Source: Betaproteobacteria bacterium
Lineage (GTDB): Bacteria > Pseudomonadota > Gammaproteobacteria > Burkholderiales > Burkholderiaceae_E
DNA length: 64,000 nucleotides
Direction of reading: 5' to 3'
Assembly: GCA_016868375.1 (NCBI GenBank)
Contig: VGHA01000002.1
Coordinates: 19,061 to 83,060, forward strand
The position numbers and the translations under genes were made by a program. Positions 19,076-28,375 of the stretch are shown piece by piece. Each line of letters starts with the position of its first letter. The first letter of the stretch is position 1. The notes under the pieces were generated by a model that was given only the letters and a program-made list of their open reading frames with translations, was not told the origin of the DNA and did no database searches.

Positions 19076-19152
<77 letters not shown>

Positions 19153-19353: not shown

Positions 19354-20040
19354 ATGAATACCGACGAAGCGAAAGCTGTGATCGAGGCAGCGCTACTGAG
19401 CGCCCAACAGCCTCTCGAAATCAACGACCTCAGGCGTTTGTTTGACGATTCGATTCCGCCCGATTCGATCCGCGCCTTGGTCGACGATATTGGTTTCAAC
19501 TGGCAGACGCGCAGCCTTCGATTGGTGAAGGTCGCATCAGGCTGGCGTTTTCAAACAGCACCTGAGTTCGCGCGCTTCCTCGACCGACTGGCAGGCGAGA
19601 AGCCGCCCAAGTACTCGCGTGCCGTGATGGAAACGCTGGCGATCATCGCCTACCGGCAGCCTGTTACTCGCGGCGACATTGAAGAGATCCGCGGCGTGAT
19701 GGTGTCGCCGCAAATCATCCGCACGCTAGAAGAGCGAGGCTGGATTGAAGTGATCGGACATAAAGATTCGGTGGGGCGGCCGTCTCTGTTCGGCACCACC
19801 CGCCGTTTCCTCGACGATATGGGCTTGGGTGCGCTGTCGCAGCTTCCCGCGCTCGAAGGTGCGGGCTCACCGGCTGACCTGCCAGCGCAGCAGGCGATCG
19901 ACTTTGATCCGCCGACGGTGCCCGCCCTGACGCATGAACCGCCTGCCGAGCCAACCGACGATTTCCAGCTTGGAGGCGACGCGCCGCAAGCCGACCCGGC
20001 TCCCCCCGCTGCAACACCCGAAACACGGGAACTCCCATGA
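19354..20040 (+). CDS. scpB: Segregation and condensation protein B
   Basis: The product is 228 aa from the ATG at 19354 ([21 protein letters not shown]); the track's longer start adds unrelated residues. Two winged-helix domains are visible, with the family core [29 protein letters not shown] and [20 protein letters not shown]. ScpB dimerises and bridges ScpA and SMC in the condensin complex. The C-terminal about 60 residues are Pro/Ala-rich and probably disordered. Its stop overlaps the rluB ATG (ATGA). Its partner scpA lies 16 kb away at 36427. Confidence 0.96.
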
Positions 20041-21791
20041 ATGATGACACCCCCACAGCGTCTGGAGCGCCTTCCGAGCGCCCCGATGCTGCCAGCGCAG
20101 CGAAGCCGTCGGCAGAGGCGGCAGGCGGTCAGTCGCCCGACGATGGTCAGGCGTCTGCCGGCAAGCCGCCGCGCCATGCGTTTCGCCGCCGCCGCGGGCG
20201 CCACCCCAACCGCACTGGGCAGGCGCGCCCTGACTCGGCTGATGGTCGCACCAATGGGCCGGATGAGGAGGCTGCGGCGGGTGCCGAGCGCCCGGTGGAA
20301 GAGGCGCCTGAGTTACCGGTGTATTCAAGCCAGCAGGCCATTGGGCTCGATGCTGCCGATCCCGCCAAACGGCGGCAACGTGATGTGCTCCCCGAGGAAG
20401 ATCTGCCGAAGCTGCACAAGCTGCTGGCCGATGCCGGGCTGGGGTCCCGGCGCGATATGGAAGAACTGATCGTTGCAGGACGCGTATCGGTGAACGGGCA
20501 GCCCGCCCACGTTGGTCAGCGTATCGGCCCGAACGATCAGGTGCGCGTAAACGGTCGCCCGATTCGCCGGCCGCCAACTTCTCTGCCGCCACGGGTGCTG
20601 CTCTATCACAAGCCGTCTGGAGAGATCTGTACCCGGGACGATCCCTCCAAGCGGGCTACCGTGTTCGAAAGGCTCCCGCGTCTGAAGGGCGCGCGCTGGG
20701 TAGCGGTTGGCCGTCTTGATTTCAATACCGAGGGTCTGCTTGTCTTCACCACCTCGGGCGATATCGCCAATCAGCTCATGCATCCGCGCTATGGTTGGGA
20801 GCGTGAATACGCGGTTCGCATTCTTGGCAGGATTGACGAAGAGACGCGCTCGCGACTGATGGAGGGCGTGGCGCTCGAGGATGGCCCGGCCGTGTTTTCC
20901 ACCGTCGAGGATCTCGGTGGCGAAGGCGCCAACGCCTGGTATCGCGTCGTGATCAGCGAGGGGCGCAACCGGGAGGTGCGCCGCATGTTCGATGTGGTTG
21001 GGCTGACCGTCAGTCGACTGGTGCGGTTGCGTTTCGGGCCGGTTGCGCTGCCTCGCGGCCTGTCGCGTGGGCGCTGGGCGGAATTGTCGCCAGCCGAGGT
21101 ACTGTCGCTGCAGCGGCTGCTGCGGGGGGGCGATCCCGCTACCGAAGCCGCCAGAGCTGCTGCCCGTGAGACCCTCGATCCGGATGACGACGATGCCGGA
21201 TGGAGCGATGCGGATGACGACTTCGAGCATCCACTTGACTCCATTGGTAACGTCGCGCTGCCCGAAGACGATGCGCCGGATGAACTGCCTCCCGAACTGT
21301 CAGACGATGAATGGCAGCCGAGTTCGCGCGATGCGCACCTCGAAGGCATTACCCGGACCGTTCGTCGCGGTGACCCTGCGCCGAAAGCGCCGGGCCAGGG
21401 GCGCCGTGCGCGCGCTCGAATGATGGGTCAGCAGGGCTTCGTGGGGCCGATGGACAGCGGCGGCGGAGCGGCGGCCACGGGCGGTGTGCCCGGCGGGCGC
21501 CAAGGCCGTGGACGCGGGGCCGGGGGGCGGGGTCCCAAAGCGGCGCCTGGCGCGCCCGGATTCTCCCTTCCCGGAGGCGGCGGCCAGCCGGGGCGCAAGC
21601 CTGGCGCGGGCAAACGCTCGGGCGGCAAGCCAGGCGGGGGCAAGTCAGCGGGCGGGCCTCGCCCTGGCGGGCAGTCGGGGCAGGGGGGGCAGCCCGGGCC
21701 GGCCTCTCCGGGTGCCGGCCGACGGCCGAGGCGCGGTCGGCGCGGTGGCGGTGGCGGTGGCGGTGGCGGGCCTGCACCCGGTGGCGCGTAA
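20037..21791 (+). CDS. rluB: 23S rRNA pseudouridine(2605) synthase RluB with long disordered tails
   Basis: The product is 584 aa, far longer than the about 290 aa of E. coli RluB. An N-terminal Ala/Arg/Pro-rich extension spans about 1-120. The S4 domain follows ([23 protein letters not shown]), then the RsuA-type catalytic domain with [14 protein letters not shown] (catalytic Asp) and [10 protein letters not shown]. From about residue 365 on, an acidic stretch ([15 protein letters not shown]) precedes a very Gly/Pro/Arg-rich RGG-like tail. The enzyme modifies U2605 of 23S rRNA; the basic tail may help bind RNA. Such tails are common in Burkholderiales RluB. Confidence 0.95.
21744..21767 (+). 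repeat. Four perfect tandem GGTGGC hexamers in the rluB 3' end
   Basis: Four exact copies of GGTGGC lie in frame near the end of rluB and encode a Gly run. The array could vary in copy number by slippage without breaking the frame. Confidence 0.85.
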
Positions 21792-21829: not shown

Positions 21830-21876
21830 TATAATTTTTTGTTGTTTACCCGTCCCGGCAGGCTTTCAGGGACGGG
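21830..21876 (+). promoter_or_regulatory. rimP operon -10 box and first leader hairpin
   Basis: A perfect TATAAT at 21830-21835 is followed by an AT-rich start region and then CCCGTCCC (21849-21856) pairing perfectly with GGGACGGG (21869-21876) over a 12-nt loop. No good -35 box was found at 16-18 bp, so promoter activity is uncertain. The hairpin would be the first element of a leader RNA upstream of rimP-nusA-infB. Confidence 0.45.
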
Positions 21877-21886
21877 CTTGGGGTGA

Positions 21887-21912
21887 ATGGGCTTGCGAGC
21901 CCATTTTTTTTT
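21887..21912 (+). terminator. Intrinsic terminator (possible attenuator) in the rimP leader
   Basis: ATGGGCT (21887-21893) pairs with AGCCCAT (21898-21904) over the TGCG loop and runs straight into nine T residues (21904-21912). This is a textbook factor-independent terminator. It lies downstream of the TATAAT and upstream of rimP, so it ends transcripts from rluB and may also attenuate the nusA operon. Confidence 0.85.
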
Positions 21913-22014
21913 CCTCGGCGCCAGGCTGGGGACGGCAGGGTGGAGAGTAATAGGTTGAATGCTGGGTCGCGGACACGATCCGAGCGCGCGCGCGAACCTG
22001 TTTCGGAAATCGGC

Positions 22015-22575
22015 GTGAGCGCCTCGGGCATTCCTCATCTGCACGAGCTGGTCGAGCGAACGATTGAGCCGATGGGGTACGAACTGGTCGATGTTGAATT
22101 CGGCCAGCGCGGGCTATTGCGAATCGTCATTGATTCTCCAGCAGGGATCCGGGTTGAAGACTGCGAACAGGTCAGCCGGCAATTAAGCCATCTGTTTACT
22201 GTCGAAAACATCGACTACGATCGGCTGGAAATTTCATCGCCGGGGCTCGACAGGCCACTTCGCCAGCCGCGCGATTTTGTCCGGTTTGCCTCCAACCGAA
22301 TCACGCTTCGGCTTCGGCAGCCTTTCCAGGGCAGGCGAAACTTCGAGGGCATCCTCACCGTTGAAGACGAAGGTCGATTCGGGCTCGAACTGGTTGAGCC
22401 TGAAAACAACACGCCGCGCAAACCGGGGGCGGGTCGGCCCGCAGCGAAGCGGGCGGGCGCTGCGCGCAAAGCCGTCAAGCCCGGTGAGCAGGAAGCGCCG
22501 GTCACGGTGCGCAAACTTATCTTTTCGCTCGACGAAGTCGAGCGGGCACGTCTGGTGCCGATCGTGAAGTTTTAG
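22015..22575 (+). CDS. rimP: Ribosome maturation factor RimP
   Basis: The core LHELVERTIEPMGYELVDVEF followed by GLLRIVIDSP and SSPGLDRPL identifies RimP, needed for 30S maturation. The start is uncertain. The track's ATG at 21883 lies within the terminator hairpin and is rejected. GTG at 22015 gives the usual short N-terminus and 186 aa; a TTG at 21955 has the best SD (GGAG nine bases upstream) and would add 20 residues. An insert of about 35 basic residues (PRKPGAGRPAAKRAGAARKAV) interrupts the C-terminal SH3-like domain, making the protein longer than the usual about 150-160 aa. nusA follows after 9 bp. Confidence 0.9.
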   Translation: MSASGIPHLHELVERTIEPMGYELVDVEFGQRGLLRIVIDSPAGIRVEDCEQVSRQLSHLFTVENIDYDRLEISSPGLDRPLRQPRDFVRFASNRITLRLRQPFQGRRNFEGILTVEDEGRFGLELVEPENNTPRKPGAGRPAAKRAGAARKAVKPGEQEAPVTVRKLIFSLDEVERARLVPIVKF

Positions 22576-22584
22576 GAGCTGAGC

Positions 22585-24069
22585 ATGAGCCGAGAAGTCC
22601 TGCTGTTGGTCGATGCGCTGGCGCGCGAAAAGAACGTCGCGCGTGACGTCGTGTTTGCAGCGCTCGAAACTGCGCTCGCCTCCGCCACCAAAAAACGTTT
22701 CAAGGAAGAGGTCGATGTTCGCGTGACGATCGATCGGCTTTCTGGTGACTATGAAGCCTTCCGTCGCTGGCAGGTTGTTCCAGACGGCGAACTCGAGGAT
22801 CACGACATCCAGATGATCCTGAGCGAAGCGCATAAACAGGTCGCTGACGTTCAGGTGGGTGACTTCATCGAGGAAGAGCTTGATGCGGTTGAGCTGGGCC
22901 GAATTGGCGCGCAGGCAGCCAAGCAGGTCATTCTCCAGCGTATTCGCGAAGCCGAGCGCGAGCAGATTATCGACGACTTCCTCGCGCGCGGCGAGCCGAT
23001 CATGTCAGGCACCGTCAAGCGCATCGATCGCGAAGGCGCGATCATTGAAACCGGCAAGCTCGAAGCGCGGCTGCCTCGCGATCAGATGATTCCCAAGGAA
23101 AACCTGCGCGTCGGTGATCGGGTGCGCGCACTCGTGCTCCGCGTGAACCGCGAGGGTCGCGGACCACAGCTCATTTTGTCGCGCACCGCGCCCGATTTCA
23201 TCCGGCATCTGTTCACCAATGAGGTGCCTGAAATCGAGCAGGGGCTGCTGCAGATCAAGGCGGCGGCACGTGATGCGGGTGTCCGCGCAAAAATTGCGGT
23301 TCACACCACCGACCGCCGAATCGATCCGATCGGCACCTGTGTGGGCGTGCGCGGTTCGCGGGTGCAGGCCGTGACGGGCGAGCTTGCGGGCGAGCGCGTT
23401 GACATCGTTCTGTGGTCGGAGGATCCGGCGCAGTTCGTGATTGGTGCGCTCGCACCTGCCAATGTGTCCTCGATCGTTGTTGATGAGGACAAGCACGCGA
23501 TGGACGTGGTGGTTGACGAGGACAACCTGGCGCTTGCGATCGGAACCGGCGGCAGAAACGTCAGGCTCGCGTCCGAGCTTACCGGCTGGCACATCAACAT
23601 CATGACCCGTGAAGAGTCGCAGCAGAAGTCGGCCGCTGAGCGCGGCGAAGTACGCAACGTCTTCATGCAGCAGCTGGATGTGGACGAGGAAGTCGCAGAC
23701 ATCCTGATCGACGAGGGCTTTACCAGTCTCGAAGAAATCGCGTACGTGCCGCTCAACGAGATGCTCGAGATCGAGGCGTTCGACGAGGACACCGTGAACG
23801 AGCTTCGCGATCGGGCGCGCAATGTTCTGCTGACAGAGGCCATTGCCACCGAAGAGAAAATTGGCGCGGCGGCCGAAGATCTGCTGTCTCTTGAAGGTAT
23901 GGATCGGGACCTGGCCGCACGGTTGTCAGATTCCGGCGTCCACACCCGCGACGAGCTGGCAGAGCTCGCCGTAGACGAGCTGGTCGACGCAACCGGGATT
24001 GACGAGCAGCGGGCCCGCGACCTGATCATCCGTGCGCGTGCGCACTGGTTTGAGAGTGAGCAGGCCTGA
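22585..24069 (+). CDS. nusA: Transcription termination/antitermination protein NusA
   Basis: The product is 494 aa, the size of the E. coli protein. Domains in order are the N-terminal RNAP-binding domain ([18 protein letters not shown]), S1 (about 130-200; [17 protein letters not shown]), and the KH1/KH2 pair with [18 protein letters not shown] and [18 protein letters not shown]. Two C-terminal acidic helix-hairpin repeats follow ([16 protein letters not shown] and [16 protein letters not shown]), as in proteobacterial NusA. It regulates pausing, intrinsic termination and rRNA antitermination. NusA is known in E. coli to control its own operon, which is relevant to the leader terminator at 21887. 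Confidence 0.98.
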
Positions 24070-24107: not shown

Positions 24108-27044
24108 ATGGCAAGTACCAACGTTGCAAGTTTCGCAACCGAACTGAAGATGCCCGTCGAGATGCTGCTGGAGCAGCTGCGCTCGGCGGGTGTCGAAAAG
24201 CGTTCGGGCGACGACACGGTCACCGAGGCAGACAAAGAGCGCCTGCTGGAAGCGCTGCGGCGCGCGCATGGTGGCGGTGAAGCGCCCAAGAAAAAAATCA
24301 CGCTTACCCGGAAGCAGACCTCTGAGATCAAGCAGGCCGATGCCACCGGTAAGGCTCGAACCATTCAGGTCGAGGTGCGCAAGAAGCGCGTCTTTGTGAA
24401 GCGCGATGGCACCGAGGTGCCCGTGTCCGAGGTGCCGACGCAGCCCGCCGAGTCTCCCATCGACGAAGATCAGCTTCGTCTGCGCGAGGAGGAAGAGCGT
24501 CGTCAACAGCAGCTGCTCGAGCTTCAGGCTGCGGAACTGCGTGAGAAGCAGCAGTGGCTCGAGGAAGAGCGTCTTCGGGCCGAGGCCGCTGCGGAAGAAG
24601 CCGCGCGGCGTGAGGCTGAGGCGCTCGCCGAGCAGCAACGCCTGGCGGCTGAAAACGAAGCCCGTCGGCGCGAGCAGGCGTCGGCCGCATCCGATGTGGT
24701 GCAACCGGTTACCAATGAACAGACTCTGCAGCGCGAGGCGGAAAATTCCGCCAGACGCAAGGCGGAAGCGCAGGCCGCTGCTCAGGCGCAGGCGGCTGCC
24801 GACGCACGTCGTCGTGCCGACGAAGAGGCGCGGGTGCGGTCCGAGGCGCGGGCTCGCGCCGAGGCCGAGGTTGCAGAAATCAATCGGCTGATGAGCGCCT
24901 CCCGAAAGCCTGTTGCCAAGCCGGTTGAGGCCCTGCCGCCGGCACCGGCACCGGCACCGGTAGTGGCCGCAGCGCCCCAGCCCGCTCCCGCAGCGCCGGC
25001 TGGCGCCAAGGCGCGGGTCAAGGGCACGCTGCATCGCGCTGCCGGCGCACCCTCGCGAACCGGTCCCGCAGCACCGGCACCTGCTGGCGATGCTCAGAAG
25101 AAACACGTCAAGTCAGAGAAGCTGTCCTCGACCTGGTCAGAGGAAGCCGCCAAGAAGCGCGCGATCAAAACGCGTGGCGACTCGAGCGGTGGTAGCGCCG
25201 GTTGGCGGGGACCGCGGGGCGGCGGGTCAAATCGCGGTCGCGATCGTGGCGCCGAAGTGCCGCAGGTCGCGGCAGCGCCTGCGGAAGCGGTGGTTCGCGA
25301 GGTCCATATCGCTGAAACCGTCACCGTTGCCGATCTTGCGCACAAGATGTCGGTGAAGGCGGCTGAGGTCATCAAGACCCTGATGAAGCTTGGTCAGATG
25401 GTCACCATCAATCAGGTGCTTGACCAGGACACGGCCATGATCGTGGTCGAGGAAATGGGGCATCTTGCAGTCGCAGCCAAGCTTGACGATCCCGAGGCAT
25501 TCCTCGAGGAAAGCGGCGACTTGGGCGACCAGATTCCACGGCCGCCTGTGGTCACAGTCATGGGCCACGTCGATCATGGTAAAACCTCGCTGCTTGACTC
25601 GATCCGTCGGTCCAAGGTTGCGGCGGGCGAGGCGGGTGGCATCACTCAACACATCGGCGCCTACCATGTGCAAACCCCACGAGGCGTCATCACCTTCCTC
25701 GACACGCCAGGTCACGAGGCCTTCACGGCGATGCGGGCGCGCGGCGCGAAAGCCACTGACATCGTCATTCTGGTGGTGGCTGCGGACGACGGCGTGATGC
25801 CGCAAACCATCGAGGCCATCCGGCATGCCCGGGCGGCTAACGTGCCCGTCGTCATCGCGATGAACAAGATCGACAAACCCGAGGCGAACCCGGACCGCGT
25901 CAAGCAGGAACTGGTCGCTCAGGAGGTCGTGCCCGAGGAATACGGCGGCGATTCACCGCTGGTGCCGGTATCCGCCAAAACAGGCGAGGGTATCGATTCC
26001 CTGCTTGAAAACGTGCTGCTGCAGGCAGAAGTGCTTGAGTTGAAGGCGGTTCGCGATGGCGCGGCCAAGGGGCTGGTCATCGAAGCCCGCCTCGACAAAG
26101 GCCGAGGTCCGGTGGCCACGGTTCTGGTTCAGTCCGGAACGCTCAAGCGAGGCGATGTGGTGCTGGCGGGTTCTGCGTTCGGCCGCGTTCGCGCGATGCT
26201 CGATGAAAATGCTCGCCCGGTTAACGAAGCCGGTCCCTCCATTCCGGTTGAGATCCAGGGTCTGGCCGAGGTGCCTGCCGCTGGTGAGGAAGTCATCGTG
26301 CTGGGCGACGAACGCAAAGCGCGCGAAATCGCGCTGTTCCGGCAGGGTAAGTTCCGCGACGTGAAGCTCGCGAAGCGGCAGGCCGCCAAGCTCGAAAACA
26401 TGCTCGAGCAAATGTCGGAGGGTGACGTCAAGACACTGCCGCTGATCATCAAGGCCGATGTGCAGGGTTCTCAGGAGGCCTTGACGCATGCCATGCTCAA
26501 GCTGGGTACCGAAGAGGTACGGATCACGGTCGTGCATCAGGCGGTCGGTGGCATCACAGAGTCTGACGTCAACCTGGCGACCGCTTCCAAGGCCGTCATT
26601 ATTGGCTTTAACGTGCGCGCCGATCAGGCCGCTAAACGCCTGGCTGAAACAAACGGCGTCGACATCCGCTACTACAACATCATCTATGACGCGGTCGACG
26701 AGGTGAAGGCCGCCATGGCTGGTCTGCTCTCACCCGAACAGAAGGAAGAGACGCTGGGTCTGGTCGAGATCCGGCAGATCTTCCGGGTGTCTAAGGTGGG
26801 AACCATCGCCGGCTGTATGGTGCTCGAAGGTGTGGTGCGGCGTGGGGCCCGAGTCCGTCTGCTGCGTGACAACACCGTCATCTGGACGGGCGAGCTCGAC
26901 TCGCTCAAGCGCTTCAAGGACGACGTCCGAGAGGTCAAGGAAGGCTTCGAATGCGGTTTGTCGCTGCGGGGCTACGACGACATTCACGAGCGTGACCAGA
27001 TCGAAGTGTTCGAGGTCAAAGAAGTCGCCCGTACGACGCTTTAA
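24108..27044 (+). CDS. infB: Translation initiation factor IF-2
   Basis: The product is 978 aa. An N-terminal IF2N motif ([23 protein letters not shown]) is followed by a long charged and Ala/Pro-rich region (about 100-400) with coiled-coil character and a GGCACC triple repeat encoding AP dipeptides. A second IF2N-like segment ([19 protein letters not shown]) precedes the GTPase domain: GHVDHGKT near residue 486, DTPGHEAF and NKIDKPEA. The C-terminal domains that bind fMet-tRNA complete the protein. IF-2 places initiator tRNA on the ribosome. An internal start giving a shorter isoform, as in E. coli, is possible but not evident. Confidence 0.98.
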
Positions 27045-27053
27045 GGCGGTTTG

Positions 27054-27431
27054 ATGGCAAAGCGCAGTGCGTCTGCGGGCCCCCGAGGGGTCCGCGTCGC
27101 CGAACAGATTCACCAGGAACTCGCCCTTCTGATTCGGGGTGAGCTCAAGGATGCAGGGCCGGGTATGATCACGCTCACCGGGGTCGATCTGACCCCGGAC
27201 TATGCGTATGCCACCGTTTATTTCACTGTACTGCCGGACGATCCAGCCACCGTTGAAGTCACGACGCAGGCGCTTTCGCGCGCGGCGGGCTTCATGCGCG
27301 GCCAGATCGGTCGACGGATCCGTATTCACACGACGCCCGAGCTGCGCTTCGTTCTCGATCGCTCCACGCTGCGAGGGCTCGAGCTCGACCGCCTGATCAG
27401 CGAAGCAAACCGTCGCCAGGCCGACGAGTGA
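27054..27431 (+). CDS. rbfA: 30S ribosome-binding factor RbfA
   Basis: The product is 125 aa from the ATG at 27054; the track's start is the TTG one codon upstream. RbfA features include RVAEQIHQELALLIRGELKD, the KH-like fold with YATVYFTVL, and the C-terminal RIRIHTTPELRFVLDRS. The protein assists late 16S rRNA maturation in the 30S subunit. It starts 9 bp after infB and overlaps truB by 4 bp (GTGA). Confidence 0.96.
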   Translation: MAKRSASAGPRGVRVAEQIHQELALLIRGELKDAGPGMITLTGVDLTPDYAYATVYFTVLPDDPATVEVTTQALSRAAGFMRGQIGRRIRIHTTPELRFVLDRSTLRGLELDRLISEANRRQADE

Positions 27432-28375
27432 GCGCGGCCTCCGCAGTGCAGCAGCCGCGAGCGGCGCGAGCGGCCAGTCCGCGCGACCCCATCGATGGCG
27501 TGCTGCTGCTCGACAAGCCACGCGGGCTCAGCTCCAGCCAGGCCATGCTTGTCTGCCGGCGGCTGCTCGGTGCGGCCAAAGCGGGTCACGGTGGCACACT
27601 CGATCCAATGGCAAGCGGCCTGTTGCCGATCCTGGTTGGCGAAGCGACCAAGTTTGCGCACGACCTGCTTGATGCAGACAAAACCTATGCTGCAACACTG
27701 CATCTTGGGCAGACCAGTACCACCGGCGATGCTGAGGGACAGATCGTTATAACGGGCAATGCCCTGCCCACTGAACCTGAGCTTGTGTCGGCGCTGCAAA
27801 GGTTCGAGGGGCCCATTGCGCAGCGGCCGCCCATGCATTCGGCGCTGAAGCATCAGGGACGCCCGCTGTACGACTATGCGCGCAGCGGCGTCGATGTTGA
27901 GCGGGCAACTCGAACCGTTGTCATTCACCGGATTGACCTGCTTGTGTTCGAAGGTGAGTTTGTGCGGCTGCGGGTCAGCTGCAGCAAGGGCACGTATATC
28001 CGAACACTCGCCGAAGACATCGGTGAGGCAGTGGGTTGCGGCGCCTGGCTTTCCGATCTGCGTCGTGAAGCCGTTGATTCGCTATCGCTCGACAACGGGG
28101 TATCGCTCGATGCGCTCGAGGCGCTCGATCTTGTCGAAAGGCGTAAGCGACTGATGCCGCTTGATTCGCTGGTGCAGCGACTGCCGATCGTTGAACTCGA
28201 TGCCGCTGCGGCGCTTCGACTGACCCAGGGCCAGCGCCTGCGACTTGCCCCCCGGACAGACGACCCGCCGCAGCGCGTTCGCGTGGTTCACGCCAATCGC
28301 CTGCTCGGCGTCGCCATGCTCGATGGTGGCGTACTCATTTCGCAACGGATGATCGCCGCACCCACCACTGGCTAG
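27428..28375 (+). CDS. truB: tRNA pseudouridine(55) synthase TruB
   Basis: The product is 315 aa from a GTG that overlaps the rbfA stop. The catalytic motif KAGHGGTLDPMASGLLP with its Asp is intact, and GTYIRTLAEDIG and a C-terminal PUA-like region are present. The N-terminus carries about 18 extra Ala/Arg-rich residues before PIDGVLLLDKPRGLSS. TruB makes pseudouridine 55 in the tRNA T loop and helps tRNA folding. Confidence 0.97.
   Translation: MSAASAVQQPRAARAASPRDPIDGVLLLDKPRGLSSSQAMLVCRRLLGAAKAGHGGTLDPMASGLLPILVGEATKFAHDLLDADKTYAATLHLGQTSTTGDAEGQIVITGNALPTEPELVSALQRFEGPIAQRPPMHSALKHQGRPLYDYARSGVDVERATRTVVIHRIDLLVFEGEFVRLRVSCSKGTYIRTLAEDIGEAVGCGAWLSDLRREAVDSLSLDNGVSLDALEALDLVERRKRLMPLDSLVQRLPIVELDAAAALRLTQGQRLRLAPRTDDPPQRVRVVHANRLLGVAMLDGGVLISQRMIAAPTTG

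Follow-up and report, generated by a model that had tools for sequence, protein, structure and literature searches.

Locus organization and anatomy of the leader

The window (the whole 64,000-nucleotide stretch of DNA that was analyzed) carries scpB, rluB, a leader region and then rimP-nusA-infB-rbfA-truB, in that order. The features that bear on the leader and its operon are as follows.

19076-19152, tRNA-Met gene with initiator features (a C1-A72 mismatch and a GGG/CCC anticodon stem)
20037-21791, plus strand, rluB (23S rRNA pseudouridine 2605 synthase), the upstream gene, from the open reading frame list (NCBIfam NF007976, 291 bits, over the cut-off)
21830-21835, plus strand, TATAAT -10 element of the putative leader promoter, with a weak -35 and a predicted start at about 21841-21844
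21849-21876, plus strand, hairpin H1, from the inverted repeat and the fold, with arms CCCGTCCC (21849-21856) and GGGACGGG (21869-21876)
21886-21912, plus strand, intrinsic terminator, AATGGGCT (21886-21893), TGCG and AGCCCATT (21898-21905), then a T run
21955-22575, plus strand, rimP (NCBIfam NF000929, 175 bits, over the cut-off, for the version starting at 21955)
22585-24069, plus strand, nusA (TIGR01953, 406 bits; TIGR01954 C-terminal repeats), whose product is proposed both to sense and to exert the feedback discussed below
24108-27044, plus strand, infB, translation initiation factor IF-2 (TIGR00487, 862 bits)
27051-27431, plus strand, rbfA, a distal operon gene (TIGR00082, over the cut-off)
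27428-28375, plus strand, truB, a distal operon gene (TIGR00431, over the cut-off)

The leader begins downstream of the rluB stop codon (21789-21791). H1 consists of 8 bp with 100% complementary arms around a 12-nt loop and has no U-tract, and the terminator has an 8-bp stem, a 4-nt loop and nine T at 21904-21912. A sequence-only reading had described a TATAAT, a perfect 8-bp hairpin and a nine-T terminator upstream of rimP, and all three are exact when the sequence is read directly. Both hairpins are present in the predicted fold (-29.1 kcal/mol, z = -1.97), with 8 of 200 shuffles as good. The start of rimP is ambiguous between TTG 21955, which stands behind GGAGAG, and GTG 22015; the mechanically assigned start, GTG 21883, falls within the leader just 5' of the terminator stem. 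Either of the two later codons is the more likely start, and the conserved domain of RimP begins near residue 28 of the 21955 version.

Two further observations concern the upstream genes. In E. coli, the initiator tRNA gene metY lies directly before rimP, whereas here scpB and rluB separate the tRNA-Met gene (19076-19152) from rimP. The C-terminal tail of rluB (window positions 21400-21790) is very G/C-rich and encodes low-complexity sequence rich in G, R and P, with a run of GGTGGC repeats at its end, just before the stop codon.

The terminator is the conserved part of the leader

On the plus strand between 20000 and 24000, the sole terminator found by a consensus scan is the leader terminator, and because the shuffle mean is 3.2, this one match is meaningless when taken alone. 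What lifts the leader terminator above chance is comparison, since its motif occurs once in the genome and nearly all relatives carry it at the corresponding position. The pattern ATGGGC-N(2-12)-GCCCATTTTT has one copy in the whole 4.67-Mb genome, at the leader terminator. The related pattern TGGGC-N(2-14)-GCCCATTTT was found somewhere in 132 of 150 Burkholderiales genomes, leaving 18 with no match. Among the matches listed, 75 genomes had both a motif place and a RimP match that could be compared, and in 68 of these the motif preceded RimP by 28-232 nt in the sense orientation, with none on the opposite strand upstream of RimP; the background in the same 75 genomes, again among the matches listed, was 68 other motif places scattered genome-wide.

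Loci fetched around nusA gave the same picture. GGGC...GCCC with a T run was present upstream in 106 of the 107 betaproteobacterial loci with enough upstream sequence (a set that includes some genomes fetched twice and holds 97 distinct leaders), and in 24 of 30 gammaproteobacterial loci; in both sets, the conservation of the four core stem pairs is partly built in by the GGGC...GCCC search pattern. The sole betaproteobacterial exception, L077, carries GGGT...ACCC, a compensatory variant. In Achromobacter, the regular expression sets the terminator one GGGC too far downstream, which leaves the counts unaffected and makes the loop and gap values wrong. Terminators downstream of rpsT were intended as a control, but a clean terminator was present there in only 4 of 28 usable loci, too few to serve as one. 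Judged from these surveys, the terminator is the conserved core of a rimP-leader.

Throughout the leaders, the stem is constant while the spacer, H1 and the loop vary, and GGGATGGGCGTTTCGCCCATTTTT is common to Pseudomonas and Rhodocyclaceae. A covariation check across Burkholderiales, which the sequence-only reading had put forward, yielded essentially no covariation in the terminator stem; because the stem sequence is nearly invariant, this check is uninformative and says nothing either way.

A fixed stem set among a freely changing spacer and upstream hairpin raises the question of whether termination depends on the stem sequence or on stability alone. In one alternative, attenuation would be set by the terminator sequence and not by the general NusA level, with a specific protein reading the near-invariant AUGGGC/GCCCAU stem and promoting or blocking termination; candidate readers would be RimP, IF2, the RNA-binding domains of NusA or some unknown factor. 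Beta- and gammaproteobacteria with differing loops and spacers have kept the sequence of the stem and not just its pairing, the GGGATGGGCGTTTCGCCCATTTTT shared by Pseudomonas and Rhodocyclaceae points the same way, and the same argument has been made for the described class (PMC2965389). Against this, the GGGT...ACCC of L077 indicates that the sequence can change with pairing kept, and GGGC...GCCC was itself the pattern by which the set was collected, although it cost few of the assessable loci. We regard such a sequence-specific reader as unlikely.

Predicted promoter and leader length

The TATAAT is perfect, as the sequence-only reading had it; judged against the consensus, however, the full promoter is weak and its -35 poor. 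The consensus promoter scan accepts no -35 box at the leader, and at a spacing of 17 nt from the -10 the upstream hexamer shares only 3 of 6 positions with TTGACA. A 17-nt block around the -10, TATAATTTTTTGTTGTT, is identical in two congeners and has a close variant in the third, and TATAATTTTTTGTTGTTTA is likewise identical in two congeners. In the third congener (L005), about 120-130 nt of a different leader separate TATAATGTTTTGTTGT from the terminator. Among the 97 distinct leaders, 60% have a strong -10 within about 120 nt upstream, compared with 13% of shuffles.

These -10 elements bear on a second alternative, in which the hairpin would be a plain terminator or insulator that ends rluB transcription and damps leaky starts, with rimP-nusA expression held constant by read-through or by another promoter and no feedback involved. 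Its position directly 3' of rluB on the same strand fits this account, and the strong U-tract would suit an ordinary terminator. Conserved -10 elements between rluB and the terminator make little sense for a pure gene-end terminator, however, the stem sequence is conserved beyond what such a terminator needs, and the same position is kept in lineages that have a tRNA instead of rluB upstream. We rate this plain role as distinctly improbable.

From the start predicted near 21842 on the basis of the -10, a terminated RNA of about 70 nt would follow, in agreement with the sequence-only reading. Across the relatives, where predicted starts rest on -10 hexamers, predicted leader lengths range from 23 to about 200 nt with a median of 73. 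In five leaders (L029, L030, L025, L050 and L055), the terminator stem begins about 0-15 nt from the predicted start, giving leaders of 23-40 nt; as start and stem nearly touch, polymerases are predicted to terminate around the point of promoter escape. A mapped Firmicute leader in which termination comes 31 nt from the start (PMC4448216) makes leaders of this size plausible.

Leader length also bears on whether the RNA of about 70 nt, with its two hairpins and U tail, might itself be the product that matters, as a trans-acting sRNA that binds Hfq or ProQ. The two stable hairpins and U tail of the predicted fold are what such an RNA would have, and one list of ProQ-bound RNAs derived from attenuators includes the rimP leader of enterobacteria (PMC5391140). 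The upstream sequence and the length change fast even within the genus, with predictions running over the whole range given above, and there is no conserved seed in the leaders. A function in trans thus described appears highly improbable to us.

The upstream hairpin is probably accessory

In three congeners, all 8 H1 pairs are kept and two pairs are changed on both sides, one from C-G to U-A and the other from U-A to C-G through U-G. With three sequences only, 222 of 500 shuffles do as well, and this covariation is only suggestive. Elsewhere in the family, a different hairpin stands at the place of H1, and many lineages have no hairpin there at all. H1 is probably a real structure in the lineage of the window, but an accessory one; a place for it in the conserved core does not hold, as many relatives do without H1 and congener L005 has a different leader. 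Pairing of the H1 5' arm with GGGACGG at 21929-21935 was considered and rejected, being absent in the congeners.

In Rhodocyclaceae, the place of H1 is taken by a hairpin similar to E. coli t1, CCCGCC...GGCGGG with T-rich sequence after it. Four Rhodocyclaceae loci (L105, L073, L085 and L098) have tandem terminator-like hairpins upstream of rimP that resemble E. coli t1-t2, the first being CCCGCC...GGCGGG with a T run and the second GGGCGTTTCGCCC with a T run.

Another upstream element is found in family relatives such as L007, L035, L034 and L040, in which GGCGTGCTC is followed by a purine run no more than 30 nt upstream of the terminator. This block and purine run are kept in 18 of 34 family leaders despite differing hairpins and lengths, and the GGCGTGCTC block is absent from the window and from its genus. 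A boxA role for the GGCGUGCUC (GUGCUC) block of these relatives was rejected after comparison with rrn leaders of the family, whose boxA cores are CTTTAACAAT or close variants; the GGCGTGCTC block of the relatives has no such core. Nor does the window hold a boxA like those of the family's rrn leaders, as a boxA/NusB-S10 antitermination leader would have.

Terminator arms and antiterminator pairing

Pairing of the terminator arms with the upstream leader was compared with dinucleotide shuffles in 56 leaders, and no pairing beyond the shuffles was found (mean z of 0.04 and -0.43 for the two arms, with 4 of the 56 leaders below 0.05 for each arm), in a comparison of modest power in which the E. 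coli control was also non-significant. In the window, GGGCUUG is repeated, once in the 3' flank of H1 and once in the terminator, so that the 3' arm of the terminator could switch partner. As an antiterminator, this switch was rejected, since the congeners do not keep it and the 56 leaders have no excess pairing. The leaders also contain no conserved NusA binding signal that could be found.

Relation to described leaders

The rimP-leader attenuator was described by Naville and Gautheret in 2010, who called it the most ubiquitous attenuator and considered NusA the best candidate effector (PMC2965389). The class is marked by a GGGc...gCCC terminator stem and a T stretch that stand immediately before rimP-nusA-infB, and its members have no clear antiterminator; here the stem, T stretch and position are shared, and no conserved antiterminator was found. 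A further trait of the class is that terminated short transcripts and read-through long ones share a start, and the window leader would be expected to give both. Its members are found 4-130 nt ahead of the start codon, within the operon's 5' UTR; in the window, the end of the T run is separated by 42 nt from TTG 21955 and by 102 nt from GTG 22015. The class stem with its T stretch is matched by AATGGGCT/AGCCCATT and nine T, and the conservation of the stem sequence across orthologous operons was observed in both the betaproteobacterial and the gammaproteobacterial surveys. By position, stem motif and conservation, the leader belongs to the rimP-leader class. It differs in having an extra upstream CCCG...CGGG hairpin without a U-tract, and in occurring in a betaproteobacterium with rluB directly upstream instead of a tRNA; the figure legend of PMC2965389 names Firmicutes and Gammaproteobacteria for the rimP-leader.

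The Rfam family RF01770 (rimP), a gammaproteobacterial model, gives the leader 14.7 bits (E = 5.2) against a gathering threshold of 47, whereas E. coli and its relatives reach 93-103 bits, and the leader is not a member of RF01770 as modelled. At the gathering threshold, Rfam matched nothing in the window but a tRNA. Sub-threshold matches to sR084 (24.8 bits, minus strand), Bp1_162 and BSnc115 were dismissed as far below the cut-off and as owing their scores to a hairpin and an A run. The tandem arrangement of RF01770 and of E. coli t1-t2, CCCG...CGGG and then GGGC...GCCC with a U tail ahead of rimP, is nonetheless shared by H1 and the terminator, with the difference from E. coli t1 that H1 has no U-tract; no antiterminator pairing was found in the window leader. 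As Rfam misses the betaproteobacterial form, its recognition would let annotation catch Burkholderiales leaders.

Two Firmicute leaders offer further comparison. In B. subtilis, as here, the nusA operon has a leader with an intrinsic terminator that gates the transcription entering the genes (PMC12288461); NusA dependence was shown there, whereas here we infer it, and the terminator in the window differs in having a long uninterrupted U-tract. The S. agalactiae gbs0413-gbs0418 leader terminates 31 nt after its start (PMC4448216), like the shortest betaproteobacterial leaders predicted here, while the window leader is about 70 nt long with an extra hairpin. The same attenuator appears to be borne by the nusA operon across distant bacteria, and the leader of the window adds one more case of an established switch and is no new type. 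What would go beyond published accounts is the betaproteobacterial survey, with its fixed stem, variable spacer and optional H1; the new points are the near-invariant stem across beta- and gammaproteobacteria and the leaders as short as 23-40 nt that are predicted in some relatives. In other respects this is an ordinary, well-precedented and real regulatory leader.

Attenuation and feedback by NusA

NusA is an essential protein with a general role in transcription termination and pausing. The attenuator proposed in the sequence-only reading is well supported: promoter, terminator and rimP keep their order across Burkholderiales and in lineages outside it, and attenuators of the rimP-leader class have been described before. 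The explanation that we consider probable is a leader attenuator that works without an antiterminator, in which NusA sets read-through and exerts negative feedback on the rimP-nusA-infB operon. RNA polymerase would start at the promoter with the TATAAT at 21830-21835 and make the leader of about 70 nt, and most polymerases would stop at the terminator ending at 21912 while the remainder would enter the operon. NusA, encoded in that operon, would raise termination at the leader terminator, so that more NusA would give less read-through and the operon would hold its own level. A competing antiterminator hairpin would be unnecessary in such a mechanism, and the terminator may also shield the operon from rluB transcription.

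NusA feedback in this organism is likely, as a transfer by homology and not as a new idea. The loop has been demonstrated in B. subtilis, where NusA controls its own gene by stimulating termination in the nusA leader (PMC12288461). For E. coli, terminators t1 and t2 lie upstream of rimP, and more operon RNA is made when NusA-mediated termination is reduced, by which a feedback loop is indicated genetically (PMC6511841). In S. agalactiae, a short terminated RNA and a long mRNA share one start, and NusA feedback has been proposed (PMC4448216). In B. subtilis, the greatest dependence on NusA is seen at weak terminators or at those whose U-tract is interrupted (PMC12288461), and NusA might matter little here because the nine-U hairpin looks stronger than these. 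This strong-looking terminator is the main doubt about NusA control, and the poor -35 also counts against the attenuator explanation.

A more specific form of the mechanism, which we offer tentatively and consider doubtful, is that the AUGGGC/GCCCAU terminator is a dedicated termination signal read by sequence, its stem being recognized by NusA or another protein. Where the stem lies about 0-15 nt from the start, feedback on nusA would then act at promoter escape and not by ordinary read-through.

A minor observation concerns the relatives used in the comparison. Four of the loci (L032, L047, L050 and L072) come from metagenome assemblies titled Bordetella parapertussis, and their NusA is 70-95% identical to that of the window. 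They group among other Burkholderiales relatives, and the Bordetella parapertussis titles look wrong.
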